Made by a program: the position numbers and the translations under genes. Under the pieces are notes generated by a model, which was given only the letters and a program-made list of their open reading frames with translations, did no database searches and was not told the DNA's origin. A stretch of DNA of 64,000 bases from Terebella lapidaria. Its lineage: Eukaryota; Annelida; Polychaeta; Terebellida; Terebellidae. Each line of letters starts with the position of its first letter. Within the stretch, counting starts at the first letter, position 1. The DNA is taken from contig OX424570.1 in NCBI GenBank assembly GCA_949152475.1, positions 9,846,181 through 9,910,180 of the forward strand, in the 5' to 3' direction. Below, piece after piece: positions 1,734-58,186 of this stretch.

Positions 1734-4700
1734 CTAAGGTGTTGTACCCTTCGTCTCCTCGCCAGATTTAGTGGTGATGTACTCGCTGTCAGGTTCGTTC
1801 TGTGCTATCCGTCTCAGCCGGCCATTGACGTACTCCAAGTCCCTCTGTGCAAATCTTTGCACGTCAGTGATCAAGTATATATCCCGTATCATGCTGGATG
1901 CATGACGCGTTGAATTCTCCCCATGCTTGTCATCCCCATCGTGTGTAATGTATTCATCAGGCTTCTCTGCTATCGGCGCTGTGATTTCTATCCTGGGCAC
2001 GGCTGCCCGTCTAGCCCTGCGGATGCATGCTCTGGGGGTGGATGGTGATGATTGAAGAAGTGGGGACGTTTTCCCAGGTCGCGTAGCATGGCTGGTAGTG
2101 TGCTGGTTGGCATGTATGTTGAAACGTGATACTTTCGGGCTATTCGATTCCTTCGGCGTCTAGTAATAGAGGGTTATAAAATAAATATAGGCCTATTTAC
2201 CTACATTTTGATGGAAATTGACAAGCTGTTTTCTGATTTCGAGAGGTTTAGTATTGATACACCTTTCCAACATCTTCAAAACAGAGTAAGGCAAACGAGG
2301 TTCACAAAGCCAAGGTCTCCGAGGTTCTTGCAAAGAATTTTTCATCAGTATGCGAATATATTTTAGTTCATATTATTTGCCCTGATTTCAAGCACATGCC
2401 TACAATTAGTCCAAGCACATGCTTTGTAGTGTATACTCACTAGGTATCCAGCCTGGTCGTTCAAGGCCACAGCGATCTGCTCTGGGGAGACCTCCATGGA
2501 GGCCATGATCTCCAGATATATTGTGTCATCTCTGTCCTGAGTCCCATTCTGTTGTGTATTGGGCAGCGTGTCACGTGGTAATGATGGCAACGGTGGCTGT
2601 GTCTCTTCTGGGCAGCTCTTTTTGAATTTTGGGCCACATTTCTCGGGGAGCTTGCAGACTTTTGGTTCCATTTCGTAGATGGATACATTTTCTGTCCGTT
2701 CTCGAAATTTCCGTCGTTTTCTACTTGAATTTTGAAGAGAACAAATGTATCCCTTGACCTAATGATTATAATTGTATGATAGTTGTGTACCATTTACGTG
2801 AGATGAATACAAATGCTACTCACGTGATTACACAGACCACAATATTCACAACGCCTATGAGGAACACGATAGTACCGACTGTTGCCAAAGCAACCACCAG
2901 CGAGTTTCCACCTGCACGTGGTAGTATCAAATACACTAGATGCGATGATACCAGAGAAAAAATGTTCACTGCACAAGGGACTAGCTTCTGATGTGCATAG
3001 ACAAGGCTGTTTTACTTTAATAATATATCATAAAAAGTCACTGGTTATTCATTGGTAGTGTCCACGGTTAGTAGTGGTACTACCCATTTTCACTAGGCCT
3101 TTTCTTCGAGTCAGGTGGGGCAGGCGTTCTTGACATGCCTTAACAAATTGAGGATTAGAAAATATCATATATATGTTCACAACCATAAAACAGATTCGAA
3201 AATCACAAAATGCTAACAAAAACTTACCAGTGTATAATACCAATTTTTTTAGTTATACCTATTTCTTGAGTAGTCGTGTTGCTATCTTGGCTGTTCTCGG
3301 TATCTGGCATCGGTTTCAGCAGGTCTGCGTTTAGGTCACAGGAATTGAAATATACTTTTGTATACTGTCATATTTACTGTGATGTTTACCTTAATGTTCA
3401 GTTCGAATTCCACCTCAGATTCAATCAGTAATTACTGGATCACCTCCTCACCTGACACTTCTTGAGACCACTCAACCATACTTTGAGAGGCGAGCTTATG
3501 ACTAGCTCCTTGTTCCAAGGCCAAACAGGCATACTCCGCACTACAGTCCTCTTTGTACACTGGGGACACCTTTAGCTCCGAACCCTCTACTGTGTGATGC
3601 TCTACCGTGATATCTGTCAGGTTAACGCCCAATCTGTTTTGATTGTCAAATAAAAATGATTGTTGTTGGTGGATATTATGATGAATTATTCCATGCAGTG
3701 AAGGCTAGTAGGTTTGTGGGGGTACTTGTTTGATGGTATTTTATTCACAGTTCACCCCATATACTAGATGATGACCACCAGAGCTTGAAATTTGTAACAA
3801 TGTAGCAGTTGTAGCTCTGTCAGGCTCGAAGAGTAATTTTCGAGAAACTACAAGAGTTGTGAGCTTCCGTTTGCAGCAATTTTTACATTGATGATGTCAT
3901 TTGTGTTTTGCCACATAATGCGTATTGCTGTTGTGAAAATTACCTGAACCAGGAGTACTGAATTGGCAGCCTATCCCGGGCCGGGAGAGATGTAGAATTG
4001 GAATGACAGGTCAATCTTAGATTTTGGTGTGTGACTCCCAGGTCAAGAGTGATTTCAGGAGTCGTTGGTTGTTCTACAATACAGAATCCTCAGGTGTTCA
4101 AAACTATATCGAGACGAGTGATATGTATTCTGATTGCTATAAAACTAAATAAAACTAAATTTATCTCGCAGTATCATATATGAAGATGACAAATCTGACA
4201 TGAGAATCGCTCGCATATGCCGCTTACAACATTATGATATTTTCCAGTTATGTTATTTGCTAAATGTATCATCATGTCACCATCTCACAGCTCTCCACTA
4301 ACTATAGATGAAAAACCGAATGGCGTCCGAAGTGATGCTGCTAGACGAACAGCATCTAAACGCTACTCTGGTCTCGTCATCTTTCACGTCCTTCAACGTC
4401 AATGTCGCCATTTTGGTTTGGGGATCAAACGTGCAATTCTCCAAGCTGATACCATATTCGGGTGTCATCACGCAGTCCCCATGCCCTGTGGTGTCTACCA
4501 TTGTGGCAAGGACAAGTGGCGCTCCAGCAATCCCGAGAATTGCATTCTCAAGATCAAAGACATAAAATCGTAGAATGTCTGTCACGTCACTTCGAAGAGT
4601 CCATGTGAGTTGCACGAGAGTAGTGTTTGACACTCTATGCAATCGAACTGAACCTGCATGTGTGTTCAACAGTTGTGTGATCGGTATAATCTGAAGTTCT

Positions 4701-5531
4701 TCGAACATCATGATTTCAACATAATAAGTAATGAGACTCAATTTGAATCACACAATGATTATAACACAAATATTGATATTAAATGTTGATGTTGAATGTC
4801 CTATTCATTTTGGAATAGGAATATATTTTTACGCTATATACTTGTAGCAGAGAGTAAAGAAAAATTCGTAGTAATAATTGTTAAATTAATTACTCAAGCG
4901 AGGTTAGCTCATCTGGTGTTGAAAGGTTTAAAGTGGAATAATCAGTTTTTAGTTTTCTGGTTGAAAGTGATCAACAGCTGTTCCCATTGCTACTGTACGG
5001 TACAAAGGTTCCAATGCGCACACAACTTGTCTAAGTTTGACATTGAAAATCGGATTTTGAAAATAGTTTCGCAAGGAACAGTTCCCTTGCAGTGATGCAA
5101 AATTAACAAGAATAACTGAAAATATAGAAAAATACACAGCCCTATCACACTTGAAACTCGTACATATATATGGGATATTATAGTGACGGAATCCCAAAGT
5201 TTGATTTTTTTGTGTTGCAAATAATGAAAACACAGGGAAATTCATGTCTTTGTTTATGTTAGCGCAGATGTAAACATTTCGGTCACATCATGCGTTTTTA
5301 CGGTATGTTCAAACTACGTTCGATGGTCATGCGGACGTATTTCGGGGGTTGTAACGGTGCTATGTCATCTAATATATGCCAGCCAATTGAATGATAATGA
5401 ATTTCAAAACCCGATTATTCCATTATTTTAGTAAACTAAACATCGTACGAAAATATGAATGTCTGTACCATACCTATTAATAGTACCAACTCGCATACAA
5501 CCAGTAAATATAATAGTGCCCTTTTATCCAT
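1734..5531 (-). CDS. IgR-A: two-Ig-domain transmembrane receptor with ITSM-like tail
   Basis: Predicted exons: 5474-5531, 4303-4698, 3944-4073, 3452-3633, 3259-3324, 2824-2911, 2441-2723 and 1734-2159, giving 1629 bp or 542 residues. Residues 1-19 (MDKRALLYLLVV...) are a signal peptide. Residues 20-151 form a first Ig-like domain on one exon. Residues 152-255 form a second Ig domain split over two exons, with LTCHS and a Trp before the junction and SAEYAC after it. A short Asn/Thr stalk is followed by a helix near 280-306 (VVALATVGTIVFLIGVV) and the stop-transfer RKRRK. The tail holds TIYLEI (Tyr376, ITSM consensus TxYxxI), LEYVNG (a Grb2-type YxN), DIYLIT and SEYITT. Phases agree at all joins. 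The weakest call is the AAG acceptor at 4699, chosen because it alone keeps frame with the signal peptide. The role, an inhibitory-type cell-surface receptor, is inferred; the ligand is unknown. Confidence 0.78.
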
Positions 5532-8006: not shown

Positions 8007-8064
8007 CTGCTGATAGCACCAGCTCACTTACAACCAGGAAATCAAATAGTGTCCTTGTATCCAT
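8007..8064 (-). pseudogene. Extra IgR-type signal-peptide exon with damaged donor
   Basis: This 58-bp exon (ATG at 8062-8064, reading MDTRTLFDFLVVSELVLSA) is a duplicate of the IgR signal-peptide exon at 5474-5531 and has the same length. The splice donor expected at 8005-8006 reads AT instead of GT. The matching exon in unit B (23293-23350) keeps GT. No Ig exon follows before the next signal-peptide exon. The copy is therefore an orphan of the module duplication, or the start of an unrecognised gene in the module. Confidence 0.45.
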
Positions 8065-9931: not shown

Positions 9932-9933
9932 TA

Positions 9934-11250: not shown

Positions 11251-11548
11251 CTACCCCTGCAGCTTATCATATACACTCGGTTGTTCCACGATATTGACAT
11301 ATTTACTTGGTTTCTCATATTGATTGTCATTTGCTACATTCTGGCCTGCTTCCATGTCATGTCTGACAGTATCAGGATCATCGTAAAGAACAATTCGGCG
11401 TCTGGGTGGATCACGTGATACATCTGCTGAAGAACCAATCACGTCCTCGTATTCAGTCACTACAGGACTTGATGACATCATTGTTTCATGTGTCCGTTCG
11501 CCTATCTGACAGTTTCCTCTCCCTGCGTTTTTCGAAGCCGTTCGTCCC
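11251..11548 (-). other. Cytoplasmic-tail exon of CTLR-A with tyrosine motifs
   Basis: The last coding exon carries the whole cytoplasmic tail. Motif positions on the plus strand: ITSM-like TEYEDV at 11440-11457, ITIM-like SKYVNI at 11290-11307, ITIM-like SVYDKL at 11260-11277. The last lies three codons before the stop. The YVN of the second motif could also bind a Grb2-type SH2 domain. All three are kept in CTLR-B. The C and D copies lose some or all of them. Confidence 0.75.
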
Positions 11549-14500
11549 CTAGAAACATTAAAAATAATACTGTAATTTTCAGCACTTAGTGCTGGAAAAT
11601 CTTACCAACTCTCGTCTCACAATCTCTTACCTAATCACATATCCGATTCCAATTCCTGCACCCAACATAACCAAACTGACAACCACGAGAACTATTATAG
11701 CTGAAATAAGACCAAAATAACATTACAAACACAAAATATAATGTCCAAGTTGTTCGCCTATATAACCCCCCATGATGCAATAATGAAACACCAAACTTCA
11801 GAGAATAAACAAAAATACCATCATACCAGTGTCAGGAAATGCGTCATCAGTGACTGCCGCTTGGTGGCCATCTAGGTGGGCTGTTGTTGGGGATTGTAAG
11901 GCTGTGGTAAAGCAGATATATCTTTTGGTGCGGAACCAAATTTAATACCCGCAGTTCCAATTTGGAACTTGAAATACCTTAATTATAAATGTTTCATTTT
12001 AGTTGCAGACTCGAAATGACACGGGCGAATGTAACAATAAATATTGTTGTGTTACGCAATGGGTATGTTACTGTGATCCAAACTGATCAACATCTGTTTC
12101 TTTGTAGAAAAAATCAGCGTTAGGTGCCCACATCCAATATCGGAGACATAGTAATGGAGGTTATGAAGTACATTCCTGAGAAGATCCCAGGTCTTGTTGC
12201 GTCTAAGCTAGAGGACTCACTTGTGGTTCTTGCTGGTGTACTCTGTTCTGTTGTTGTGCTTGGTAAGACATGATTAGGTTGCATTCCTGGCCATGTGATC
12301 TCAGCTTGTGTTGTGTCCAGGCTCGTGTCTTCGCTTGTTGTTTTCGCTGGTATATTCTGTATGATACTTGTTGGGATTGGTGTATCCGGTGTGGTTTGTG
12401 TAAATATCTTGGTTATGTGTGATATGTGAGATGCTTCTCCTGGATAGCTGTCATCATCTGAAAGAGTATCAAAATGTTATGTGTTAATTTAGGCTCGTCA
12501 TCTGTGAGAATAACAAACCATGTTCGTAGGGATTCCCTTGTCAGCTCTCTACGGGATACAAATCTATTGGGCTAAAATCACAGAAACCACCAAAAATAAT
12601 AATGCCAGTCGCCTAGTGTCATTGCGGAAGTCTGTCATTCACTTCGAATGGGCTCATATAACACGGGAGGGTCAGTTACATAGCAAACAAAGTCACAAAG
12701 GGGAAAAGGAGTACATCGGCAACGTTATTTCATGGATGCACTAATGGTGATACATGTATGTTTCTGTGAATCATGATACACTATACATGTAAACATTTTA
12801 CTTCATAATTTTACTTCATAATCAGGGAGAAGTGGAGTGGACGAACTACAGTGGATTGGAATCTATTGCTAGAAAACTTTTAGATCTGGTATGCACAAGC
12901 TGTTATGATCTCGGCCAGAGCATGTCAATGGAGTCTGGTCTCTCTGGAAAAAAAGGAAAGTACAAAATTGTATATTATTCGTCACAGTTATTTCAGTGTT
13001 CTATGTAGCCAGCACACTGACAGTGTTAGTTGTCAGGAGGTGGGGAAGGATAGTTGGTATGGTAGGCTCGGTAAAAACCATCGATGAGGAGGAGTGTTTA
13101 TTTTTAGTTGATTGGGTTTTTAGGCCAGGGCATTGGTAATATCATGGTTACATGACTGCGCATCACTGGTGTTATTACCTGTTTTAGATAATACATTTTT
13201 TGAAGAAAAAAAAATTGGAACAAATATTTTTTTTTCCAAATGATCCAACAGCAATTTGATAGAGGGACTGCCTCTTGTAGTGAGTCCACTGTATGCTATC
13301 GATGGTGTATATCCAACTGCAGTAGCGGATTTAGTGGGGGAAGCGGTGGCCTACGTCTCCTACCCCCTGTCCCCAACATGGCTCAATTTTGGGAAACCCA
13401 CCCAGGAATCATATGAAATTCTACAAATTCCATTTTTTTCTCGGGGGGCCTTAAGGCCCTCGAAATTCCCAGACTGCAATGTCCATAAATTTCAAAATTT
13501 TTAAACTGCATAAGTACAATTGTAGACTACATCTCAGAAATCATCTAAAATACTATCAAATCCCCGAATTCCTCTTGGGGTTCTTATTATGGAGGATTGT
13601 GAACCCTCAGAGTGGGAGGAGTTACGCTCCCTCCTCTCAGTCCCCTGGCTCCTCTCCTGCACTGATCCTCCCCCCCCCCCCAGCCCAATTCCTTGATGCG
13701 CCCCTGTATATGATGCGCCCCTTCATAGGTACCCCCCCCCCCCCCTCTGACAAAATCCTAGATCCGCCCTTATCCAACTGGCGGGTCCTCAAAGTGAAAT
13801 AGTTTCAAACTTGGATGAAACACTTAATGTTTGGAAGCAGCATAAAAACCAACCAGAAAGTAAAATTTTGAGAGTCGAAGTGTGTCGGCACAGTGTGTGA
13901 GGTGTTCATTTAGTTACGTTGTATCACAATTTGAGCTTCCAATCAACGAAGTATAGTTTCATGATGATACTCACGGCCAGAGCATCTCCCTTACGCGTTA
14001 TTGGTTCTCAGCAAGTGGCGACTAAACACAAATTGATATTTCAACGCATCTTACTTTCAGTTTTCACTGGATATTGCAACTTCATAGCACAATATCACAA
14101 TTCCACCATCCTACCTATTTTTAAAGCTAACAAATATATAATATTAAGAAACATTCTTGACATTAAGACTCAGAACAAACATGTTACAATATGGGCATAC
14201 GTACGATGTTGACACAGTAAATAACGCAACCTCTGGGTTGAAGTAGCACTAATCCACTTGAATCGATTGTTGGTATCTAGACTGATCAACATGTGACGTC
14301 TGTGCTCATGGGACTCGGCATCAGATGCCCACATTCCCGGAACCCAGGCAAACTGGCTCACTGGTGAACCTGTGTAATGTGAGGAAGTTCTACTGAGTGT
14401 CCAACATAGTATATTACTAGTGCAACAACTGTCTGTCTGTTTCTATCAACACTCATTTCTTCAACAGATAGCAGTCACGGAAAGAATAATTGAGAGGGAT

Positions 14501-16067
14501 CTAACAATTCCACTCTGTGTGCGTACCACTCAGAGAATCACAATGCCTTTCAGTGTCATGAAATATGATGAAAAAGCACATACCATTTTCCCAAAGCCAT
14601 GGGTACCTGAGAATCCCAACCCACACCAGGTGATTGTATCTTGTTATGACTCCTCCCCTAAAAGTTATATTGTTGATGTGTGTATAAGCCAGATCTCCAC
14701 CGAACTGAGTGTGGCAGAAGGTTTGAGCGTCATACCAGTCACCTCTCCCAGGCTTGTCGGTATGGACGTAATGACACATACCAGAGAAGTAGAATCCAGT
14801 GTAATTGCCGATGACGCAAGTATTATCTGTAACGGAATTATATAATGAAACAAACTGCCAAAAAATCCAACCATGTCACCTATACAATACTACTCAAGCA
14901 ACTCAAACACAACGTTACGTACCTGATTGTAAATATTGACAAAGTGCAAAGATTTTGCCTGTTGTTTCATCACAATTGTCCGCGTAAATATTCTCATTTA
15001 CATTCATGTAGATACAGAACTGTCCACTCTCCTGGCCTGTTATCACTTTAGGACCTGTGATAGGAGGATAGCACGTGGTTTGTATTGCTAGGGGTTTGTC
15101 CCTCCAATACTTGAATATGCAGTGAAAACCTACCAGAAAGGGATGCTCCATTAATCAGTCTCCATGTTCCATCCTCACTCCTCCTGCCACCAATCCACAC
15201 CCCGTGTGTATATGGATCATCATATAACACAGGGACAGACTCCAGCACAGCCTCCACCTGAGACTGTACAGCCGGGTCTGTGATTGACGCAAGGGCGGCA
15301 TTCTCTCCTATACAGGCCTCTCTACTCTGATCCCAGGTGATACCATCAGTCTGATTGGTGCCGTAGACAACCAGACAGAACCCAGTAGAATTACACCATC
15401 TGTTAGCTGTGTACAACGCCTTCATTCCAGTAAAGTGAAGAGCTGTTGAAAGTCATGAGTCGTTTTGAACAATGAGGTGGATGTCTCTAATCATGAACTT
15501 AATGGAGAGCAATTTTTGGATTCACGACAATCAACGTGAACTTCTTCTTGAGTTTAAATGTTCAGCATGATGTACATATTCGAATGTTAGGATGTGTCGT
15601 GATTGACCCGCGTGGTTTTCATCAATGATCATTTAAGGTAACTGGAAACTCTCAGCCCGTCCGTCCCGATGAAAGATTCGTTTTTTGATTTTCTTCAATG
15701 CTCAAGATACATGATACATTGATTATCATCTATGCTCAAGATACATGCACTATATACCTCCCTAGACCAAATGAATTTACGAATAATTCCCAGGCATGAT
15801 TGAAGCATTCCCCGACACCCCAGACCCAATACCTCAGACCCCATTTTCTCTATTTCGCGGATCTACCCCTGTAATTATGCTAAGCATTGATGTATTTTTT
15901 CAGAAAATCTCACAGGACAATTGGAGATGGCAACGATATAACTCTAGTACAATAGGCTACATGAGCACTACGATGACATACTAGAGTAGACAGTTCACAT
16001 TGGAAAAAAATTCACCGAGGTACTCACCGAGAATAGATTGATAGATGACTACATTCTTCAATTCCAT
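11251..16067 (-). CDS. CTLR-A: tandem C-type-lectin-like receptor with ITSM and two ITIM motifs
   Basis: Predicted exons: 16028-16067, 15134-15442, 14923-15054, 14584-14826, 14205-14369, 12221-12457, 11827-11901, 11631-11700 and 11251-11548, totalling 1569 bp or 522 residues. After a 13-residue leader come two C-type-lectin-like domains, each on two exons. Residues 14-160 have GVWIGG, a Trp and paired Cys; residues 161-296 have DWYDAQTFC, GDLAY, WVGI, WLWENG and LLCQ. Neither shows the EPN/QPD or WND calcium-sugar motifs, so the ligand need not be sugar. A Thr/Ser/Pro-rich stalk (297-400) resembles a mucin-type stalk. A helix (IIVLVVVSLVMLGAGIGIGYV) precedes a 99-residue tail with TEYEDV (Tyr457, ITSM), SKYVNI (Tyr507, ITIM) and SVYDKL (Tyr517, ITIM). 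Every junction keeps phase with GT-AG sites. The inhibitory role is inferred from family knowledge of SHP-recruiting tails. Confidence 0.82.
12520..12744 (+). other. Antisense ORF of unknown nature inside CTLR-A intron
   Basis: A plus-strand frame of 74 codons (MFVGIPLSALYGIQIYW...) lies in the intron between the stalk exon and the second lectin exon. It is repeated at 40212-40436, 54191-54385 and 62108-62329 with different lengths. The following plus-strand stretch (12827-13140) is a broken copy of the 102-codon frame that is open at 54441-54749 and 62385-62693. It may be an old insertion carried by all copies. No family is recognised. Confidence 0.2.
13320..13772. mobile_element. Non-autonomous hAT-like element, unit A copy
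   Basis: The element is flanked by an 8-bp direct repeat TCCAACTG (13312-13319 and 13773-13780), the length typical of hAT insertions. It begins CAGTAGCGGATTTAG; the reverse complement of its other end carries AGGGCGGATCTAGG. Both fit the 'CAGxGGCGGATC' style of hAT terminal repeats. The interior is non-coding with long poly-C runs near 13670 and 13730. It sits in the CTLR-A intron between lectin and stalk exons. The same insertion site is shared by B, C and D, so it predates the duplications. Confidence 0.75.
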
Positions 16068-16986: not shown

Positions 16987-19900
16987 TTACTCAGGTGTTG
17001 TACCCTTCGTCTCCTCGGCAGATTTAGTGGTGATGTACTCGCTGTCAGGTTCGTTCTGTGCTATCCGTCTCAGCCGGCCATTGACGTACTCCAAGTCCCT
17101 CTGTGCAAACCTCTGCACGTCGGTGATCAAGTATATATCCCGTATCATGCTGGATGCATGACGCATTGAAGTCTCCCCATGCTTATCACCCCCATCGTGT
17201 GTGATGTAATCATCAGGCTTCTCTGCTATCGGCGCTGGGATTTCTATCCTGGGCACGGCTGCCCGTCTATCCCTGCGGATGCACGCTCTAGGGGTGGATG
17301 GTGATGATTGAAGAAGTGGGGACGTTTTCCCAGGGCGCGTAGCATGGCTGGTAGTGTGCTGGTTGGCATGTATGTTGAAACGTGATACTTTCGGGCTACT
17401 CGATTCCTTCGGCGTCTAGTAATAGAGGGTAATAAAATAAATATAGGCCTATTTACCTACATTTTGATGGAAATTGACAAGCTGTTTTCTGATTTCGAGA
17501 GGTTTAGTATTGATACACCTTTCCAACATCTTCAAAACTGAGTAAGGCAAACGAGGTTCACAAAGCCAAGGTCTCCGAGGTTCTTGCAAAGATTTTTTCA
17601 TCAGTATGCGAATATATTTTAGTTCATATTATTTGCCCTGATTTCAAGCATATGCCTACAATTAGTCCAAGCACATTCTTTGTAGTGTATACTCACTAGG
17701 TATCCAGCCTGGTCGTTTAAGGCCACAGCGATCTGCTCTGGGGAGACCTCCATGGAGGCCATGATCTCCAGATATATTGTGTCATCTCTGTCCTGAGTCC
17801 CATTCTGTTGTGTATTGGGCAGCGTGTCACGAGGTAATGATGGCAATGGTGGCTGTGTCTCTTCTGGGCAACTCTTTTTGAATTTTGGGCCACATTTCTC
17901 GGGGAGCTTGCAGACTTTTGGTTCCATTTCGTAGATGGATACATTTTCTGTCCGTTCTTGAAATTTCCGTCGTTTTCTACTTGAATTTTGAAGAGAACAA
18001 ATGTATCCCTTGACCTAATGATTATAATTGTATGATAGTTGTGTACCATTTACGTGAGATGAATACAAATGCTACTCACGTGATTACACAGACCACAATA
18101 TTCACAACGCCTATGAGGAACACGATAGTACCGACTGTTGCCAAAGCAACCACCAGCGAGTTTCCACCTGCACGTGGTAGTATCAAATACACTAGATGCG
18201 ATGATACCAGAGAAAAAATGTTCACTGCACAAGGGACTAGCTTCTGATGTGCATAGACAAGGCTGTTTACTTTAATAATATATCATAAAAAGTCACTGGT
18301 TATTCATTGGTAGTGTCCATGGTTAGTAGTGGTACTACCCATTTTCACTAGGCCTTTCCTTCGAGTCAGGTGGGGCAGGCGTTCTTGACATGCCTTAACA
18401 AATTGAGGGTTAGAAAATATCATATATATGTTCACAACCATAAAACAGATTCGAAAATCACAAAATGCTAACAAAAACTTACCAGTGTATAATACCAATT
18501 TTTTTAGTTATACCTATTTCTTGAGTAGTCGTGTTGCTATCTTGGCTGTTCTCGGTATCTGGCATCGGTGTCAGCAGGTCTGCGTTTAGGTCACAGGAAT
18601 TGAAATATACTTTTGTATACTGTCATATTTACTGTGATGTTTACTGTAATGTTCAGTTCAAATTCCACCTCAGATTCAATCAGTAATTATTGGATCACCT
18701 CCTCACCTGACACTTCTTGAGACCACTCAACCATACTTTGAGAGGCGAGCTTCTGACTAGCTCCTTGTTCCAAGACCGAACAGGCATAATCCGCACTACA
18801 GTCCTCTTTGTACACTGGGGACACCTTTAGCTCCGAACCCTCTACTGTGTGACGCTCTACCTTGATATCTGTCAGGTTAACGCCCGATCTGTATTGATTG
18901 TCAAATAAAAATTATTGTTGTTGGTGGATATTATGATGAATTATTCCATGCAGTGAAGGCTAGTAGGCTTGTGGGGGTACTTGTTTGATGGTATTTTGTT
19001 CACAGTTCACCCCATATACTAGATGATGACCACCAGAGCATGAAATTTGTAATAATGTAGCAGTTGTAGCACTGTCAGGCTCGAAGAGTAATTTTCGAGA
19101 AACTACAAGAGTTGTGAGCTTCCGTTTGCAGCAATTTTTACATTGATGATGTCATTTGTGTTTTGCCACATAATGCGTATTGCTGTTGTGAAAATTACCT
19201 GAACCAGGAGTACTGAATTGGCAGCCTATCCCGGGCCGGGAGAGATGTAGAATTGGAACGACAGGTCAATCTTAGATTTTGGTGTGTGACTCCCAGGTCA
19301 AGAGTGATTTCAGGAGTCGTTGGTTGTTCTACAATACAGAATCCTCAGGTGTTCAAAACTATATCGAGACGAGTGATATGTATTCTGATTGCTATAAAAC
19401 TAAATAAAACTAAATTTTTCTCGCAGTATCATATATGAAGATGACAAATCTGACATGAGAATCGCTCACATATGCCGCTTACAACATTATGATATTTTCC
19501 AGTTATGTTATTTGCTAAATGTATCATCATGTCACCATCTCACAGCTCTCCACTAACTATAGATGAAAAGCCGAATGGCGTCCGAAGTGATGCTGCTAGA
19601 CGAACAGCATCTAAACGCTACTCTGGTCTCGTCATCTTTCACGTCCTTCAACGTCAATGTCGCCATTTTGGTTTGGGGATCAAACGTGCAATTCTCCAAG
19701 CTGATACCATATTCGGGTGTCATCACGCAGTCCCCATGCCCTGTGGTGTCTACCATTGTGGCAAGGACAAGTGGCGCTCCAGCAATCCCGAGACTTGCAT
19801 TCTCAAGATCAAAGACGTAAAATCGTAGAATGTCTGTCACGTCACTTCGAAGAGTCCATGTGAGTTGCACGAGAGTAGTGTTCGACACTCTATGCAATCG

Positions 19901-20786
19901 AACTGAACCTGCATGTGTGTTCAACAGTTGTGTGATCGGTATAATCTGAAGTTCTTCGAACATGATGATTTCAACATAATAAGTAATGAGACTCAATTTG
20001 AATCACACAATGATTATAACACAAATATTGATATTAAATGTTGATGTTGAATGTCCTATTCTTTTTGGAATCGGGATATATTTTTACGCTATATACTTGT
20101 AGCAGAGAGTAAAGAAAAATTCGTAGTAATAATTGTTAAATTAATTACTCAAGCGAGGTTAGCTCATCTGGTGTTGAAAGGTTTAAAGTGGAATAATCAG
20201 TTTTTAGTTTTCTGGTTGAAAGTGATCAACAGCTGTTCCCATTGCTACTGTACGGTACAAAGGTTCCAATGCGCACACAACTTGTCTAAGTTTGACATTG
20301 AAAATCGGATTTTGAAAATAGATTCGCAAGGAACAGTTCCATTGCAGTGATGCAAAATTAACAAGAATAACTGAAAATATAGAAAAATACACATCCCTAT
20401 CACACTTGAAACTCGTACATATATATGGGATATTATAGTGACGGAATCCCAAAGTCTGATTTTTTTGTGTTGCAAATAATGAAAACACAGGGAAATTCAT
20501 GTCTTTGTTTATGTTAGCGCAGATGTAAACATTTCGTTCACATTATGCGTTTTTACGGTGTGTTCAAACTACACTCGAGGGTCATGCGGACGTATTTCGG
20601 GGGTTGTAACGGTGCTATGTCATCTAATATATGCCAGCCAATTGAATGATAATGAATTTCAAAAACTGATTATTCCATTATTTTATTAAACTAAACATCG
20701 TACGAAAATATGAATGTCTGTACCATACCTATTAATAGTACCAACTCGCTTACAACCAGTAAATATAATAGTGCCCTTTTATCCAT
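16987..20786 (-). CDS. IgR-B: two-Ig-domain transmembrane receptor with ITSM-like tail
   Basis: Predicted exons: 20729-20786, 19558-19953, 19199-19328, 18707-18888, 18514-18579, 18080-18167, 17697-17979 and 16987-17415, totalling 1632 bp or 543 residues. The architecture is that of IgR-A: signal peptide, Ig1 on one exon, Ig2 over two exons, short stalk (DLLTPMPD...), one helix, then a tail with TIYLEI and LEYVNG. All inner exons match the IgR-A lengths exactly; only the last differs, by one codon (a Glu before the stop). Several Ig2 changes separate it from IgR-A (for example VERHTVEG for VEHHTVEG, and SADYACSV for SAEYACLA), while the transmembrane and proximal-tail exons are almost unchanged. 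No in-frame stop is seen. The unassigned module lies upstream and the CTLR-A leader under 1 kb downstream. Confidence 0.78.
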
Positions 20787-23292: not shown

Positions 23293-23350
23293 CTGCTAAT
23301 AGCACCAACTCGCTTACAACCAGAAAATCAAATAGTGTCCTTGTATCCAT
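23293..23350 (-). CDS. Second IgR-type signal-peptide exon in unit B
   Basis: This 58-bp exon (ATG at 23348-23350) reads MDTRTLFDFLVVSELVLLA and ends in phase 1 at an intact GTATGG donor. It duplicates the IgR-B leader at 20729-20786. Because the donor is intact, unlike 8007-8064, it could start a transcript of the unassigned module or serve as an alternative first exon for IgR-B. Which it does cannot be told from sequence. Confidence 0.4.
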
Positions 23351-32200: not shown

Positions 32201-35200
32201 AACTCAATAATATCACCCGAAAGGATGCTTACCCTCTCCCGAATATTGAGGACGCATTCACTGTCCTGGCAGGAGCGAATTATTTTTGTTCCCTGGATTT
32301 GGCAAGCGGTTATTGGCAAATAGGATTATCAGAAAGTGCAAAACAGAAATCTGCATTTTGTACACGTAATGGACTCTACCAATTCAACGTCATGCCGTTT
32401 GGCCTCGCCAACGCACCCGCTACATTCGAACGTCTCATGGAATTATGTCTGAAAGGTCTCTGTTGGCGTCACTGTGTCGTGTACATAGACGATGTGATCG
32501 TCTTTGGAAAGACATTCCATGATTGTCATGCCCGACTTGAAAATGTGTTTTCCCGTTTGAGAAACACTAACCTGAAATTAAAACCTAAAAAATGTCACTT
32601 ATTCCAGCCTTCGACTATATATCTAGGATTTAAAGTATCCGGAGATGGAATTGAACCCGACCCCGCAAAAGTTGAATCCGTAAAAACATGGAACCCACCT
32701 TGTACTGTGAAAGGAGTCAGGGCGTATTTGGGTTTTGTTGGCTATCATAGGAGATTTATCCCGCATTTTTCAGATATCGCTGAACCTCTGAATGTATTAA
32801 CCCGGAAAAAACAACCCTTCGTGTGGGGAAATGACCAACAAAGGGCATTCGAAACGTTAAAGTCTTCCCTCATGACAACTCCGGTACTTGCACATCCTTT
32901 ACCCAAAGGTGACTTTATATTAGACACTGATGCGAGTATGTCCGCGATAGGAGGTGCTTTATACCAGATTCAAGATGGTGAAGAACGATTAATTTCGTAT
33001 GCCAGTAAAAGCTTGACAAAAACCCAGAGAAACTACTGTACAACAAAACGCGAACTTTTGGCAGTAGTTCGCATGATTCACCATTTCCGCCACTATTTGT
33101 GGGGAAGACCCTTTTTAATCCGGACTGACCACGCATCCTTGCGATGGTTACTCAATTTCAAAGCGGCGGAAGGGATGCTCGCCCGATGGATAGTAAAATT
33201 ATCCGAGTATGATTTCCAGATCCGCTACCGGGAGGGTCGATTGCATGCGAATGCTGATGGCTTGAGCCGCCGGCGCTGTCATGGTTGTACCCGTGTAGAT
33301 TGTCCTGATAAATTAATGCCTATTGATGAATTGAGTTCTTCTGATGATGATAATTTGTTTCCCGGGAACAACAGTGACACGTATAACCAAGTCTGTGTTA
33401 ATGTATGTAATATACCCGAAAATCATCCCGATGATGCATCAGATAACCCGCAAAGTAATATGGAATTTGTATATTCTATAAACGGAAATACCGGTGTCAC
33501 TAATTTCGAGAAACTCTCCCGTGATCAGTGGTTCCGTGGTCATAGCCACGATGATTTATATCTAGCCCAATTGAAAGATAATGATATTTCCCGTGTGTTA
33601 ACCTGGAGACAGGAATCAAGTGAACCGCCTTCACAAGGCATAGCTGTCATGGAAAGTAGTGAAGTCCAAGGTCTACTTGCTCAGTGGAAACGCTTAATTG
33701 TCGTCGATAAAATATTATACCGTACACCGGCAGTTAATAACCTAGATGGTCAGACAAAGCTGCAGTACATAGTTCCCCGTTCATACCGTCTAGATGTGAT
33801 GCATCTGGTCCATGATCTCCGTCTCTCTGGTCACTTAGGTGTCGCAAAAACTCAGGCACGTGTTGCTGAGAGATTTTTCTGGCCTGGAATGTATGAAGAT
33901 GTCCAGAGATGGGTAGCTTCTTGTCCCCCGTGTAGGCGCCGCAAGGGTGCCGCTGCCCCGAACCGTAGCCCGCTCCTGAAAATGTTAATTGGGGCACCAT
34001 TCCAACGGATTAGTATGGATGTTCTGGATACCCGTCATCGTAGCCGCCGTGGTAATCGCGTCATAATCGTTCTTGTGGATTATTTCACAAAATGGACAAT
34101 TGCTGTGGCGCGTCCCGACCACAAAGCAGCCACGTGTGCTGATGTCATTATGAATAATTTCGTTTGTCAGTTTGGTGTACCACTAGAAATCCTAACCGAC
34201 CAGGGGCCAGAGTTCGAAGGAAATCTTTTCCAAACTCTCTGTGACTTGCTGAGAATTAATAAAATCCGCACTAGCCCGTATCGCCCGCAGACAGATGGAT
34301 TGACGGAAAGAGCAAATAGAACGATCATAAGTATGATCGCTAAATTTGTCAACGAAAAAGTAACGGATTGGGATGATCACCTGCCTTATCTGATAATGGC
34401 TTACAACACTTCGCGTCACCTCAGCACAGGTGCTTCGCCCTTTTCTATGGTATATGGCAGAGAAGCCAATTTACCCGTTGATCTGATATATCCCCCGACC
34501 GATCCTTTCCCTAATCACTTTGTGAGCGGCGTAGAATATATTGAATTTCTGAAGAATTCAATGTCTAAAGTTCACGAACACGCTCGAGAACAGCTGCATA
34601 AAACCGCTTTGAGACAACGAAGATATTATGACGTTAGAGCCCGATCTAAACCCGCTTTCAAAGTTGGTGATGTTGTCCGATACTTTTACCCGCCCCTGAG
34701 AGTGTCGAATAAATTTGCTAGTCAATGGATTGGCCCGTACACTATTATTTCCCGCGAAACCGATGTAGATTATCAGATAAAAGGCTCTTTGAGATCAGGC
34801 AGTGAGGATATCAGAGTTGTCCACATGGATAATCTCATTTATTATGAGGCCGATCGCAATAACTTGTTTGAAAAATATATTGACCCCGATATATCCGATT
34901 TTTGTTATTCGCAGACAACGTCCACTGACGTTGAACTGAGTGACGTGCATAGTACTGATGATAACACGGTTAGCGAACAACGCCGTGACCCGTTATTACC
35001 CGACTTTGCTGAAATGGCCAGTGATGCTGGTACCAGCACCGAGTTTCCTCCCTTCGATGGCCATGTAGGTGCTGGGGAAAACAGTGGTTCTTTAAATCTC
35101 AGGAAGCGGCCCTCCCGTAAAACACGCAAACCCGACTGGTACAGACCTGGCCCGTAATATTCTACTATAGTCTGTGTCACGTGTATGTGACATACAGTTC

Positions 35201-38200
35201 ACGAAGACATGCAAACTCATGCGAAAACCTCTCGCGCCGGGAAAAAAAAAATGTATCGATCGTTTCCCGGGAATTGTTATTACACCCCAGTGTACGAATA
35301 CTCTGCTGTCCAGTCTGAGTTCTCGGCGGCGTGCTGTAATTGCTCATCAGTATATACATTTCACTCACGGCAAGAGTCATCACTTGGGCCATCCCACACA
35401 TTTATAGGGGTGCTCCTTTAATCCATTTATTATTTGGTTTATCCGATACTGATTTTTCCTAAAACAAATGCCCCGAATAAAGTGATATTATTTGATACAA
35501 AGTATCCATTCTAAGCATATTCCTGTGCGCACCCGCTTCTAATTAAATTATCTGCATGACACTATGCCGACTTAGGACCGGTGTAATACTGACCCCTGTC
35601 ATGAAATAGTAGGTTCAGCCCAAGGGGATGGTCGGGCGGGAGCATAACCCGTCGGCGCGCCCTAATAAATTGCCCACACGTGGAAAGTTTTTCACACAAC
35701 CAGTTGCAACTGTTCAATGCCAACGATGACAACCGTTACAAAATCAGAATCCTCCGAGTTGAGCGACACGCCGACCGTAGACTGGAGCGCCGCCATGGAT
35801 GTGGACCCGACCCCAGGGGCTGAGGCGAGTCAGACTACGCCACCCCCGGGCGTTCCCGACTCATCCCCCGCAGGTAATAACATACCCGTAAATATACACG
35901 ACCCTGACGAGGCCTCAATTTGTATGGCAATTACCGATTATTGCCAGGAGCCGGTCTCCAGTATTTCTGCGAATCAAAATACCGAAAGTATTCCGATGAC
36001 CCTTCCAGAAGTTCCCCAGAATACCTCCCCCGTCAAGACCGAGTCTGCGCAGGAGGCCAACGGCGACCGTCCCGACTCCAGTCGAGCGCCCCAATCACAC
36101 ACTAACCCCGAGGCCATCCAGGTCTGGTATGGCCGGCCATCCGCCGCGAAGGTGAGCAACACAGCCAGGTACGACCCTGACGGAGGATACAGGATCCGGC
36201 TAGCCGACCAGTTCCGGTCGAGGTGGTCAGCGGTCAGAGCTGGGCTCCAGTCTACTCTGGGCGCCTTTGGCACAATGGAACTCTATCCCGCGGCAATCAC
36301 CAAGATGGTAGCCTTCCCGTTCGCATCTACCCCCGCTGGCTTGCAGTGTCCTCACTGTGACGCGATTTTTGAGCGACCTCCGCAGGTGGTAAGGGACGTT
36401 CAAACGTGTCATTACCCGTTTATCGCCTTGTGGGTATGTCCCGAAGACTCCTGCAAGGCGAAGACGTGGTACAGGCGCGATCTGCTCCGAGCACACTACA
36501 AGCAAGCCCACCCCTCTCGCAGTGGCGCACAGCTGGTGTGCAATTACGTCACCCGTTACAACACCCGATATTTGCCCCCTCGCCCAGCAGGACGTACACC
36601 GTTTCCTTTCCTGCAGGAAGTCATGAGGGACTTTGTCGAGCTGTGGCCCTCGCTCCAGAGGGACGCGAACTTTAGATTACCCCTGGCGCAGTTGGAGGGT
36701 GCCCCGGCGCTGGCCCCTCACGCCCGGCCAGAGATTGACTACCCCGTCGTCGACGTTCCCCGTGGCCAGCGATCTCGTCCGGTTGGGCAACGGAAGGTAT
36801 CGCCGTCATCCGCTACAGCAGGCAAACCGGGGCGTTCTCGTGACGAGCAAGCGACATCTGCTCAGCCCGAGGCTAAGCGGGCCAAGCTGCAGAAAGAGGC
36901 TGGACGTGTCGCCCTCGGCCATGACCCCGTAGCCGGCCCATCGCGCACGTCCACCTACGATGTGGAGAGTCTCCCGCCGGCCGTACAATTGGCGTTACAG
37001 GAACGTGACATGTTCTGGACCTGTCTGGTTCAGATCCAGGCCAAAATGCAGGTATCTAATCAGAACGCCGACGTCATTGTCAATAGTCTTATCGGTGAAC
37101 TCTTCCTGCGACTGGGGACGGCCGACGATGTGCAGAGGTTACGCGGGGACGCCCGAAGCGACCTGTATAAGCGGTTCTGCACAGCCGTCGCTTCGCAGCG
37201 TCAGGAGTTTCAGTGATAATGCATCCCGAAAATAAACGATTATGCGGTGAATAGCGTTGTGTGTTTTACTATACCTCTGTCGGTAAATCATTCAAGGCAT
37301 TCATCGCGTCTGTTATTTGGAGGTATTGCCCACCGCATCCTCTTCCCGAGACAGACAAAATGATATTGGTGGCTCAGGAATACTCCTATTGTATCCTAAT
37401 TTCATATTATATAAATGCTAAATTTAGTTATGTTTGGAATTTTTACCTTCATGGTTATTTTCGGACAGAGGGTGTTTCCAACCTAAACCACCAAACATAA
37501 CGCTCTTCTAAATTGGTGTGTATTATATTTCAGATCGAGCCATCAATTTCCAAAATTGAAACATTTAGTATGTTTCCAAATCAAAATTACCGGTCTCCAA
37601 TCAAGAGATCATTCCTTAGATATTTTCTTTGACCAGATTCTTTGTATGATTATTTGTCATACCAAAATTGTATATATACAATGTCATAGGGTCTTTTTAG
37701 CCGCGTTTTGGTAAGGACTGGTCCTAAGGATTTTATTTTTACCCTGTATAGGTACTTGCTCCGCGTTTTGGCCAATTTTGGAGTGTAGACCATTCCCCCT
37801 GTTCTGCTCTCATCGTTTATTAGTCGGCTCATTTCTATTTCACACTTCATCATTTTATAAACCACTTAATATTGTTATACAGCGGTATACCTACTTATGG
37901 TACAACTTATCCCGTGTTTCAGTCTGCTACTGAATATATTCACCTGACTCCGTGTACATTCTGAGCTTGCCTATTTCACCAAGAGACACCTCGTGGTCCG
38001 AGCGTCTGATTGCATAAATATCAAGTAGTTTTCCCCATCATAACCCGTGTTTTTTTATAATTGTGTTAGCCCGAATAACCTACATGAGGGTCTGTAACCC
38101 TGGTCGCTGTGCTTAGTTGGCCAGGTACTGAATCACGAACAAGAATTGCCTTTAGAGCATGAGAGCACACGTTCGTAATTGTGTGTCGTGATTAATATAT

Positions 38201-41200
38201 ATCCACAAGACGCACTGGCTTCACGTGCACATCGTGAAAGTATTTTGGGGAATGGATGCTATTCCCTTAGGCCACGTTACAAAAGTATATATATATTTTA
38301 GTGGACTCTGCAGATACATGTACTGTTTAGGAATAGACCCAGCATAGGTTTTTGCTAGCAATCAATTTTATTTTACTACTTGATTTCCCCGTATCTGAGT
38401 GCTTTCTGAATAGGCAGAACTCAACGTGAGTGTATAAAGATGACCCCCCTGGCTCATCTTTAGGAGGGAGGTGTAAGAAAGTTGTATGTGTGTACATGTA
38501 CCGATCTTATTATTTTTGCACTATACAGGCCTAGTATTTCATTATTGTATTCGTTGTTGACGGTTTATCTCTGGTGTGACCGCCCGTTTGAATAACTCGC
38601 ATGGTGACCACTGTTGCACACGAGTTGCCCAGCCCAGTCTGAGTTCATCACTCTGTACTGGTCATCCTGACACGCCTCACTGATCAGGAACCAGGAGTCG
38701 ACAGCTCCGACACATGGCTGACACGAGTGATACTCCATTCAACATGATACCCAGACCACCAGGCTTTGTATACCGAAATGTGCTCTTATTTCATTCGCAT
38801 GTATTGCTCTGGCATACTCCACACAACTCACTACCAATAACACCACACCACTCCTTTGCAAACACCAATGACGCACGTCACGTTGTCACAATCTGAGCCT
38901 CTATATAAACTCTGGGAGCCCAGACTTGGGGAGATTCATCTGGTGACGGGTTGTCACGCTGACACCCCTCACCACGACACCACTCGGCAGCATATGACGA
39001 CAGCTCTTGAGGAACGCGGCCCTCAACGACTCCTGAGATGCCTCAACCTGGATGAACATGGAGTTCTCGCAAGAGTTCATCCCCCGGTTCTAGAGTTCCG
39101 TGGCACGGGAGGCACCGAAACTATGACCCGTTGGTTGGAGTTTACACCGATTTGTAACTCAGCACATACCAAATACACCGATATAATATATAATCCGGCC
39201 CAAGGATTTAGGAGCCCACGGACGTGGGGACCTTCTGTTGGAGTGTTATACTTCAGTCAGGAGATCAGGGATTTCGCCTCCCTCCCTGGATTCTCGGCCT
39301 ACCCCGACACAACGAGAATAAACTATACCTGTAACGTGAGGTCAATGATGATATTGGTAGCTGTCACAATCTATGTAATTGTGAGTGTAGTCGCTACCCT
39401 GTCTGAGTCCTCACTTCGTTACATATAATGTCCAAGTTTATCGCCTATATAATGCCCCACGATGCAATAATGAAACACCAAACTTCAGAGAATAACAAAC
39501 AAAGATACCATCATACCTGTGTCAGGAAATGAGTCATCAGTGGTCGCCCCTTGGTGGCCATCTAGGTGGGCTGTTGTTGGGGATTGGAAGGCTGTGGTAA
39601 AGCAGATATATCTTTGGTGCGGAACCAAATTTAATACCCTCAGGTCCAATTTGGAACTCAAAATACCTTAATTATAAATGTTTCATTTTCGTTGCAGACT
39701 CGAAATGACATGGGCGAATGTAAACAATAAATATTGTTGTGTTACGCAATGGGTATGTTACTGTGATTCAAACTGATCAACATCTGTTTCTTTGTAAAAA
39801 AAACATCAGCGTTAGGTGCCCATATTAAATATCGGAGACATAGTAATGAAGGTTATGAAGTACATTCCTGAGAAGATCCCAGGTTTTGTTGCGTCTAGAC
39901 TAGAGCACTCACTTGTGGTTCTTGTTGGTGTACTCTGTTCTGTTGTTGTGCTTGGTAAGACATGATCCGGTTGCATTTTTGGCCATGTGATCTCCGCTTG
40001 TGTTGTGTCCAGGCTCGTGTGTTTGCTTGTTGTTTTTGCTGGTGTATTCTGTATGATACTTGTTGGGATTGGTGATTCCGGTGTGGTTTGTATAAACATC
40101 CTGGTTATGTGTGATATGTGGGTTGCCTCTCCTGGGTAGCTGTCATCCTCTGAAAGAGTATCAAAATGTTATGTGTTGATTTAGACTCGTCATCTGTGAG
40201 AATAACAAACCATGTTCGTAGGGATTCCCTTGTCAGCTCTCTACGGGATACAAATCTATTGGGCTAAAATCACAGAAACCACCAAAAATAATAATGCCAG
40301 TCGCCTAGTGTCATTGCGGAAGTCTGTCATTCACTTCGAATGGGCTCATATAACACGGGAGGGTCAGTTACATTGCAAACAAAGTCACAAAGGGGAAAAG
40401 GAGTACATCGGCAACGTTATTTCATGGATGCACTAATGGTGATACATGTATGTTTCTGTGAATCATGATACACTATACATGTAAACATTTTACTTCATAA
40501 TTTTACTTCATAATCAGGGAGAAGTGGAGTGGACGAACTACAGTGGATTGGAATCTATTGCTAGAAAACTTTTAGATCTGGTATGCACAAGCTGTTATGA
40601 TCTCGGCCAGAGCATGTCAATGGAGTCTGGTCTCTCTGGAAAAAAAGGAAAGTACAAAATTGTATATTATTCGTCACAGTTATTTCAGTGTTCTATGTAG
40701 CCAGCACACTGACAGTGTTAGTTGTCAGGAGGTGGGGAAGGATAGTTGGTATGGTAGGCTCGGTAAAAACCATCGATGAGGAGGAGTGTTTATTTTTAGT
40801 TGATTGGGTTTTTAGGCCAGGGCATTGGTAATATCATGGTTACATGACTGCGCATCACTGGTGTTATTACCTGTTTTGGATAATACATTTTTTGAAGAAA
40901 AAAAAATTGGAACAAATAATTTTTTTTCCAAATGATCCAACAGCAATTTGATAGAGGGACTGCCTCTTGTAGTGAGTCCACTGTATGCTATCGATGGTGT
41001 ATATCCAACTGCAGTAGCGGATTTAGTGGGGGAAGCGGTGGCCTACGTCTCCTACCCCCTGTCCCCAACATGGCTCAATTTTGGGAAACCCACCCAGGAA
41101 TCATATGAAATTCTACAAATTCCATTTTTTTCTCGGGGGGCCTTAAGGCCCTCGAAATTCCCAGACTGCAATGTCCATAAATTTCAAAATTTTTAAACTG

Positions 41201-46110: not shown

Positions 46111-49100
46111 TCATTTTTCAGATGGTGTTCCCTTCGTCTCCTCGGCAGATTTAGTGGTGATGTACTCGCTGTCAGGTTCGTTCTGTGCTATCTGCCTCAG
46201 TCGGCCATTGACATATTCCAAGTCCCTCTGTGCAAACCTCTGCACGTCGGTGATCAAGTATATATCCCGTACCATGCTGGACGCATGACGCGTTGAACTC
46301 TCCCCACGCTTGTCACCCTCATCGTGTGTGATGTATTCATCAGGCTTCTCTGCTATCGGCGCTGTGATTTCTATCCTGGGCACGGCTGCCCGTCTAGCCC
46401 TGCGGATGCATGCTCTAGGGGTGGACGGTGATGATTGAAGAAGTGGGGACGTTTTCCCAGGTCGCGTAGCATGGCTGGTAGTGTGCTGGTTGGCATGTAT
46501 GTTGAAACGTGACACTTTCGGGCTACTCGTTTCCTTCGGCGTCTAGTAATAGAGGGTTATAATATAGATATAGGCCTATTTACCTACATTTTGATGGAAA
46601 TTGACAAGCTGTTTTCTGATTTCGAGAGGTTTAGTATTGATGCACCTTTCCAACATCTTTAAAACAGGGTAAGGCAAACGAGGTTCACAAAGCCAGGGTC
46701 TCTGAGGTTCTTGCAAAGATTTTTTTATCAGTATGCAAATATATTTTAGTTCATATTATTTGCCCTGATTTCAAGCATATGCCTACAATTAGTCCAAGCA
46801 CATGACTTGTAGTGTATACTCACTAGGTATCCAGCCTGGTCGTTCAAGGCCACAGCGATCTGCTCTGGGGAGACCTCCATGGAGGCCACGATCTCCAGAT
46901 ATATTGTGTCATCTCTGTCCTGAGTCCCATTCTGTTGTGTATTGGGCAGCGTGTCACGTGGTAATGATGGCAACGGTGGCTGTGTCTCTTCTGGGCAATT
47001 CTTTTTGAATTTTGGGCCACATTTCTCGGGGAGCTTGCAGACTTTTGGTTCCATTTCGTAGATGGATACATTTTCTGTCCGTTCTCGAAATTTCCGTCGT
47101 TTTCTACTTGAATTTTGAAGAGAACAAATGTATCCCTTGACCTAATGATTATAATTGTATGATAGTTGTGTACCATTTACGTGAGATGAATACAAATGCT
47201 ACTCACGTGATTACACAGACCACAATATTCACAACGCCTATGAGGAACACGATAGTACCGACTGTTGCCAAAGCAACCACCAGCGAGTTTCCACCTGCAC
47301 GTGGTAGTATCAAATACACTAGATGCGATGATACCAGAGAAAAAATGTTCACTGCACAAGGGATTAGCTTCTGATGTGCATAGACAAGGCTGTTTTACTT
47401 TAATAATATATCATAAAAATTCACTGGTTATTCATTGGTAGTGTCCACGGTTAGTAGTGGTACTACCCATTTTCACTAGGCCTTTTCTTCGAGTCAGGTG
47501 GGGCAGGCGTTCTTGACATGCCTTAACAAATTGAGGGTTAGAAAATATCATATATATGTTCACAACCATAAAACAGATTCGAAAATCACAAAATGCTAAC
47601 AAAAACTTACCAGTGTATAATACCAATTTTTTTTAGTTATACCTATTTCTTGAGTAGTCGTGCTGCTATATTGGCTTTTCTCGCTATCTGGCATCGGTGT
47701 CAGCAGGTCTGCGTTTAGGTCACAGGAATTGAAATATACTATTGTATACTGTCATATTTACTGTGATGTTTACTGTAATGTTCAGTTCAAATTCCACCTC
47801 AGATTCAATCAGTAATCACTGGATCACCTCCTCACCTGACACTTCTTGAGACCACTCAACCATACTTTGAGAGGCGAGCTTCTGCCTAGCTCCTTGTTCC
47901 AAGGCCGAACAGGCATACTTCGCACTACAGTCCTCTTTGTACACTGGGGACACCTTTAGCTCCGAACCCTGTACTGTGTGACGCTCTACCTTGATATCTG
48001 TCAGGTTAACGCCCGATCTGTTTTGATTGTCAGAGAAAGATTATTGATAGTGGATATTATGATGAATAATTCCATGCAGTGATGGCTAGTAGGCTCGTGG
48101 GGGTACTTGTTTGATGGTATTTTGTTCACAGTTTACCCCATATACTAAGATGATGACCACCAGAGCATGATACTTGTAATAATGTAGCAGTTGTAGCACT
48201 GTCAGGTTCGAAGAGTAATTTTCGAGAAACTACAAGATTGTTGTGAGCTTTTGTTTGCACCAATGTTTACATTGATAATGTCTTTGGATTTGCGCCTGAA
48301 AAGGCCTTTATAAATCATTTGTGTTTTGCCACAGAATGCGTATTGCTGTTGTGAAGTTTACCTGAACCAGGAGTACTGAATTGGCAGCCTATCCTGGGCC
48401 GGGAGAGATGTAGAATTGGAACGACAGGTCAATCTTAGATTTTGGTGTGTGACTCCCAGGTCAAAAGTGATTTCAGGAGTCGTTGGTTGTTCTACAATAC
48501 AGAATCCTCAGGTGTTCAAGACTATATCGAGACGAGTATATGTATTCTGATTGCTGATTGCTATAAAACTAAATTTGTCTCGCAGTATCATATATCAAGA
48601 GCACAAATCTGACATGAGAATTGCTTACATATGCCGCTTACAACATTATGATATTTTCCAGTTATGTTATTTGCTAAATGTATCATCATGTCACCATCTC
48701 ACAGCTCTCCACTAACTATAGATGAAAAGCCGAATGGCGTCCGAAGTGCTGTTGCTAGATGAACCACATGTAAACACTCCTCTGGTCACGTCATCTTTCA
48801 CGTGCTTCAACGTCAATGTCGCCATTTTGGTTTGGGGATCAAAGGTGCAATTTTCCAAGCTGATACCATATTCGGTTGTCATCTTGCAGTCCCCATGCCC
48901 TGTGGTGTCTACCATTGTGGCAAGAACATGTTGCTCTCCAGCAATCCCGAGACTTGCATTCTCAAGATCAAACACGTAAAATCGTAGAATGTCTGTGACG
49001 TCACTTCGAAGAGTCCACGTGAGTTGCACGAGAGTAGTGTTTGACACTCTATGCAATCGAACTGAACCTGCATGTGTGTTCAACAGTTGTGTGATCGATA

Positions 49101-49400
49101 TAATCTGAAGTTCTTCGAACATCATGATTTCAACATATTAAGTAATGAGACTCAATTTGATTCACACAATGATTAAAACACAAATATTAATATTAAATGT
49201 TGATGTTATCATTCTGGAATAGGAATATATTTTAACACTATATACTTGTAGCTGAGACTAGAGAAAAAATCGTAGTAATATTCGTTAAAGCAATTATTCA
49301 AGCGAGGTTAGCTCATTTGATTCTGAAATGTTTGTACCATACCTACTAACAGTACCAACTCGCTCACAACCAGTAAATCAAATAGTGCCCTCTTATCCAT
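46111..49400 (-). CDS. IgR-C: two-Ig-domain transmembrane receptor with ITSM-like tail
   Basis: Predicted exons: 49343-49400, 48717-49112, 48362-48491, 47836-48017, 47643-47708, 47207-47294, 46824-47106 and 46111-46542, totalling 1635 bp or 544 residues, in frame. Exon lengths equal those of IgR-A and IgR-B except the last (two codons longer than A, ending ...TPSEK). Signal peptide MDKRALFDLLVVSELVLLV. The first Ig domain is the most changed part (EQHVLATMV for APLVLATMV, CKMTTEYG for CVMTPEYG, VFTCGSSS for AFRCCSSS). The helix and membrane-near tail are unchanged, with TIYLEI and LEYVNG kept. The diversity is thus concentrated outside the membrane. Only one module copy and one leader exon precede it, unlike A and B. 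Confidence 0.78.
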
Positions 49401-58055: not shown

Positions 58056-58186
58056 TCGTCTTTCCCGTCACCAGAGAAGCTCTCAAGTGGTCCATCACCG
58101 ACAAGTTCCACGACTATCTGTACGGGAGCAAGTTTCAAGTCTGGACGGACATCAATCCTCTGACCTACGCCCTCACAACCGCGAGG

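Follow-up and report, generated by a model that had tools for sequence, protein, structure and literature searches.

An array of alternating C-type lectin-like and two-Ig receptor genes with tyrosine-bearing tails in Terebella lapidaria

We analysed a 64,000-nucleotide stretch of Terebella lapidaria DNA (the window; G000:C17:9846181-9910180, within a 761.6-Mb assembly), on the minus strand of which receptor genes with two immunoglobulin (Ig) domains (IgR) alternate, in units of about 15 kb, with receptor genes encoding tandem C-type lectin-like domains, CTLD (CTLR); the splice sites and phases are consistent across the units. A sequence-only reading of the same stretch had proposed two unrelated single-pass receptor families, arranged head to tail in alternation on one strand, and both the gene models and the order of the array bear this out; the tyrosine-bearing tails that it ascribed to both families are likewise present in the models. 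Judging from the sequence, we favour, with a probability of about 0.58, a pair of recognition receptors that were amplified together and signal through phosphotyrosine, with a CD22-like tail layout and probably serving in immune or self-recognition.

The alternating array and its genes

The array spans about 205 kb, of which the window covers about a third, and sits inside a CTLD region of about 1 Mb on contig C17; self-comparison of the window gave 93.7% identity between units A and B over 9.2 kb. With one tail taken per gene, the gene order over 9.7136-9.9161 Mb was ICICICICICICICICCI, and 16 of the 17 pairs of neighbours differed in kind (permutation P 0.0004). Not counted were the CTLR on the plus strand at 9774980, the part below 9.70 Mb that has CTLR genes alone, and additional IgR tail exons at 9730177 and 9748673. 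Such alternation is what copying a two-gene unit in tandem would give. The genome-wide match counts are lower bounds: at least 19 for the CTLR tail (14 on the minus strand at C17 9.633-9.904 Mb, one of them partial and one stop-bearing; three on the plus strand inside the same interval; two at 8.93 and 9.03 Mb), at least 10 for the IgR V exon (nine at C17 9.716-9.919 Mb and one on contig C5), at least 38 for IgR tail exon 2 (11 on C17, 26 on C5 and one on C6), and at least 51 for the CTLD1 exon (21 at C17 9.628-9.915 Mb, 23 at C17 8.92-9.39 Mb and seven elsewhere). Beyond the window, after the fourth CTLR copy (CTLR-D), stands a further IgR gene with signal, V, C2 and tail exons.

The exons of copy A were modelled first and were then projected onto the other copies and translated. 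Every internal boundary of the copy A models (IgR-A and CTLR-A) is AG/GT with matching phases, and the same exons recur in IgR-B, IgR-C and CTLR-B, as the earlier argument from exon phases for real genes would have it. IgR-A (1734-5531; minus strand, as are all receptor exons given below) is open in every modelled exon: a putative signal-peptide exon (5474..5531; MDKRALLYLLVVCELVLLI; GTATGG donor), a first Ig domain, V-like by a low-confidence model (4303..4653), the 5' and 3' halves of the second Ig domain (3944..4073 and 3452..3633), a stalk exon (3259..3324), a transmembrane exon with no charged residue in its core (2824..2911), tail exon 1 (2441..2723; SIYEME, TIYLEI and GYL) and tail exon 2 with the stop (1734..2159; DEYITH, DIYLIT, LEYVNG and SEYITT). 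The predicted product is a single-pass type I protein with a V-like domain, a C2/I-type Ig domain, a transmembrane segment and a tail of about 235 residues. IgR-B (16987..20786; signal 20729-20786, V 19558-19908, C2 19199-19328 and 18707-18888, stalk 18514-18579, transmembrane 18080-18167, tail 17697-17979 and 16987-17415) and IgR-C (46111..49400; signal 49343-49400, V 48717-49067, C2 48362-48491 and 47836-48017, stalk 47643-47708, transmembrane 47207-47294, tail 46824-47106 and 46111-46542) are also open in every modelled exon and by projection reproduce the exons of copy A without gaps, the signal exon being present in all three.

The second domain was assigned to the C2/I type by a profile match to axonin-1 (E 1e-4 over the full sequence, with no individual stretch passing by itself), and its Cys-Trp-Cys is invariant in the four sequences aligned; Pfam Ig_3 gave E 2.7e-5 at 25 bits, below the cut-off of 30. 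The profile of the V-like domain had no match among solved structures, and its B-strand cysteine was absent by inspection. Upstream in units A (7959-9073) and B (23251-24358) there is a diverged second copy of the signal exon, together with about 1 kb of surrounding sequence; none was seen in C. The copy in B keeps its GT donor, the one in A has lost it, and the exon is possibly an alternative first exon. In the two units with extra tail exons, at C17 9730177 and 9748673, the copies of tail exon 2 lie about 3.5 kb apart and could permit alternative tails.

CTLR-A (11251-15442; open) consists of 5' and 3' exons for CTLD1 (15134..15442 and 14923..15054) and for CTLD2 (14584..14826 and 14205..14369), a Ser/Thr-rich stalk exon (12221..12457), a transmembrane exon (11631..11700) and a tail exon with the stop (11251..11548; TEYEDV, LYDDP, QYEKP, SKYVNI and SVYDKL), which would make a single-pass type I protein with a tail of about 98 residues. 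Pfam Lectin_C matched it in two stretches (E 1.2e-16). In CTLR-A and CTLR-B the sugar-binding signature EPN/QPD is absent, except that B has a single QPD at the junction of the domains, and so is WND, a looser pattern for which gave only WIS in CTLD2. A 27-nt micro-exon in CTLR-A (11827-11853) was rejected, since none of the copies B, C and D retains its acceptor. CTLR-B (26245-43910) is open, with one GC donor, and is split by a long terminal repeat (LTR) element; its tail (26245-26542) and transmembrane (26625-26694) exons stand on one side, and the stalk (39913-40149) and CTLD exons (41901-42065, 42280-42522, 42609-42740 with the GC donor, and 43602-43910) on the other.

The copies A, B and C listed by the sequence-only reading are thus intact for IgR; among the CTLR genes, A and B stand, C does not, and a fourth, partial copy (D) that went unnamed is also present. 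The CTLR-C remnant (52843..54110; stalk 53877-54110, transmembrane 53232-53301, tail 52843-53140) has a TAA stop on the tyrosine of TEYEDV, and no CTLD exons were found for it in the window, nor by the genome-wide CTLD1 search between CTLR-B and CTLR-D. In the CTLR-D remnant (57619..62045; stalk 61810-62045, transmembrane 61234-61303, partial tail 57619-57748) the stalk has a 1-nt deletion and the tail match is limited to 43 residues, and a stop in its CTLD2 lies just beyond the window. CTLR-C and CTLR-D look dead, and only CTLR-A and CTLR-B look usable.

The LTR retrotransposon in the stalk-transmembrane intron of CTLR-B (26735..39424; plus strand, opposite to the gene) is 12.7 kb long and Gypsy-type by domain order, and the insertion is recent, as there is a single difference between its 953-bp LTRs. 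With the LTRs read as TG...CA, the element has TATA at either flank, and a 515-residue open frame in it (35669-37213) had no Pfam match at E up to 1. A second LTR-type insertion (57843-61208), with mutually identical 172-bp repeats and an integrase-bearing frame (57986-59800), lies between the transmembrane and tail remnants of CTLR-D.

Tail motifs and constraint

The IgR tail alignment comprised 18 distinct sequences, namely the three window copies of the 11 in the array, whose first tail exon is known, and 15 of 19 C5 loci (of the other four, three are incomplete and one is identical to another); the single match on C6 and seven other matches on C5 had no locus. All 18 share four tyrosines, another two are present in 17, and 40 of the 212 ungapped columns are invariant. 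For CTLR, 15 of the 19 tails were used; the four left out are one duplicate, the C tail with its stop, the partial tail of D and locus L019, which is nearly the same as L018. YVN occurs in all 18 IgR tails and YxN in all 15 CTLR tails; YxN, the consensus of Grb2-type SH2 domains, is kept in every examined tail of both families.

Motifs resembling the immunoreceptor tyrosine-based inhibitory motif (ITIM) are less general. CTLR-A carries three (TEYEDV, SKYVNI and SVYDKL; 3 versus 0.24 in shuffles, P 0.0004), and IgR-A a single TIYLEI (P 0.27 as ITIM-like and 0.06 as TxYxx[VI], by shuffles). Across the families, at least one ITIM-like motif is present in 12 of the 15 CTLR tails and in none of the three plus-strand ones, and an ITIM-like or TxYxx[VI] motif in three of the 18 IgR tails, exclusively window copies. 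The plus-strand tails (C17:9648665-9776698; loci L015-L017) have Phe in place of the last tail tyrosine and carry YEN and YVN. The sequence-only reading had placed TxYxx[VI] in both families and two SxYxx[IL] in CTLR; this is correct for copy A, whereas the label of ITIM or immunoreceptor tyrosine-based switch motif (ITSM) fails for IgR as a family, and family-wide the CTLR figure of 12 in 15 refers to ITIM-like motifs of any kind. Note that conservation, by which that reading was to be checked, was counted here on paralogues of the same genome.

The transmembrane segments examined have no charged residue, which suggests no pairing with an adaptor, so that the tail itself should signal. Classical inhibitory receptors, in which ITIM/ITSM tails recruit SHP-type phosphatases and restrain immune cells, as in natural killer (NK) and LILR receptors, would have such uncharged segments, and the three motifs of CTLR-A and the ITIM-like sites in most CTLR tails agree with them; we nevertheless consider this explanation unlikely for the pair, as 15 of the 18 distinct IgR tails have neither ITIM nor ITSM and three of the 15 CTLR tails (the plus-strand ones) lack an ITIM-like motif.

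Among the array copies, purifying selection acts on IgR tail exon 2 (pN/pS 0.31; nine distinct of 11 copies) and not on the second Ig domain (pN/pS 1.04; nine copies), the V-like domain lying between without significance (pN/pS 0.54; seven distinct of nine). For the second Ig domain, three copies without any synonymous change had hinted at positive selection, a hint that disappeared with the nine copies. On C5, 25 of the 26 IgR tail matches fall in a 646-kb stretch (G000:C5:24925736-25571800; 24.93-25.57 Mb), where one gene has open frames of two Ig-type domains upstream of the tail; the remaining match, at 24.17 Mb, belongs to a gene with V-like, second-Ig, transmembrane and tail regions ordered as in IgR. 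The second Ig domains of C5 and IgR have in common STSxPxxxRLPIxYxW (or all but one residue of it) and a Cys pair in the four sequences aligned. The C5 genes make up a larger two-Ig receptor family related to IgR.

A large clustered Ig receptor family whose tail exon is constrained and whose second Ig domain is less so would also suit an array for allorecognition or self-recognition, in which Ig-type receptors would engage matching partners on adjoining cells. The model is the Hydractinia complex, with 40 Alr and Alr-like genes reported on one chromosome (PMC11876637). For the present array this is rather improbable: the V exons are 85-100% identical to copy A, not hypervariable, and the lectin partners would be left without a reason. 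Still more improbable are endocytic or scavenger receptors with tail tyrosines in YxxPhi, the consensus of AP-2 sorting signals, instead of SH2 docking sites, since, even if YEDV, YVNI, YDKL and YLEI fit that pattern and the tandem CTLDs are closest to the macrophage mannose receptor among solved structures, the invariant IgR sites EYVNG, EYITT and YLITD misfit it wherever compared across the 18 tails, and the invariant EYVNGRLR extends past a four-residue signal.

Proposed mechanism and points for and against a co-amplified pair

As a co-amplified signalling pair, IgR and CTLR would have multiplied together within the CTLD cluster as a tandemly repeated two-gene unit, and the region would be part of a multigene recognition-receptor complex. 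From the make-up of the tails, we infer that ligand engagement may lead Src/Syk-type kinases to phosphorylate the tail tyrosines, on which SH2 proteins would then dock. Because YxN is found in every examined tail of both families, a Grb2/Drk-type adaptor could form the common core, to which ITIM-like sites, carried by most CTLR tails and among the IgR tails by the window copies only, might add SHP-type docking. The sequence of a tail does not tell inhibitory from activating output.

Several results weigh against this proposal. Two of the four CTLR copies of the window are decayed, and the search for a signal exon in CTLR-A and CTLR-B found none. YxN in one tail is within chance (P 0.26-0.27), and the case for it rests on conservation among 18 IgR and 15 CTLR tails that are not independent because they are related paralogues. 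The pN/pS of 0.56 for the CTLR tail (five distinct of six close copies) is suggestive only, its interval spanning zero. A joint divergence of IgR and CTLR as pairs found no support: across eight units their divergences were uncorrelated (Mantel r -0.12, P 0.60; r 0.36, P 0.12 once an outlying unit was removed), which simple pair duplication does not predict, so that later exchange would have had to mix the genes. No homologue was found in the protein collection, in which even a CTLD query had no match, suggesting that it holds few animal proteins.

A more integrated invertebrate lectin and Ig complex, that is, an obligate amplified pair with a convergent invariant YxN feeding one SH2 adaptor, forming an interleaved counterpart of the NK and leukocyte complexes and coupled to the larger Ig cluster on C5, seems doubtful to us. 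Vertebrate NK-type recognition employs clusters of lectin and Ig receptors with common tyrosine tails; if the co-amplified pair is real, a linked array of both kinds would show how readily such systems arise. The locus would offer a compact place for testing ligand diversity, pairing and SH2 coupling, and the motif counts replace a loose ITIM analogy by the specific prediction that both receptors couple to a Grb2-type adaptor.

Comparison with known systems

Among the matches listed in the open-licence PMC literature, including that on receptor arrays and on ITIM receptors of molluscs and other invertebrates, none describes an array in which lectin and Ig receptor genes alternate; this does not prove that none has been described. 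Large repertoires are reported in a survey of C-type lectins in bivalves, whose main text does not contain the word tyrosine (PMC10140915). The Biomphalaria GRC and PTC2 are similar in being clusters of single-pass transmembrane genes tied to schistosome resistance, with beta-rich ectodomains in GRC, and they show strong allelic divergence; neither Ig/CTLD alternation nor tyrosine tails are named in the passages cited (PMC4361660, PMC7494358). Oyster CgIgIT2 and CgSiglec-1 are molluscan Ig-type immune proteins, the former a transmembrane receptor with a tyrosine motif that is tied to ERK phosphorylation; CgIgIT2 has five Ig domains and an immunoreceptor tyrosine-based activation motif, CgSiglec-1 has two I-set domains, and the cited passages do not describe them as an array with lectins (PMC11999971, PMC5877582). 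The Hydractinia Alr complex is alike in its roughly 40 clustered Ig-type genes, some of them potential pseudogenes, with no lectin partners named for it in the parts cited (PMC11876637, PMC11999971).

The mammalian natural killer complex (NKC) and leukocyte receptor complex (LRC) also have clustered lectin-like and Ig-type receptors (PMC1193534). The two kinds stand in separate clusters there and alternate gene by gene here. CTLR also departs from the NKC lectins in its tandem CTLDs and type I topology. The NKC lectins are type II, and the receptors of both complexes carry tyrosine motifs.

The best-documented analogue of the tail layout appears to be CD22 (Siglec-2), for which six conserved tail tyrosines, three ITIMs and a Grb2 site are given in the cited part of the source (PMC5302901) and which, like IgR, has an Ig ectodomain, a single transmembrane segment and a multi-tyrosine tail. 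IgR differs in that most of its tails have no ITIMs and in the missing B-strand cysteine of its V-like domain. We know of no alternating lectin gene for CD22. The likeness shown here is one of layout, several ITIMs together with a Grb2 site, and not of sequence homology.

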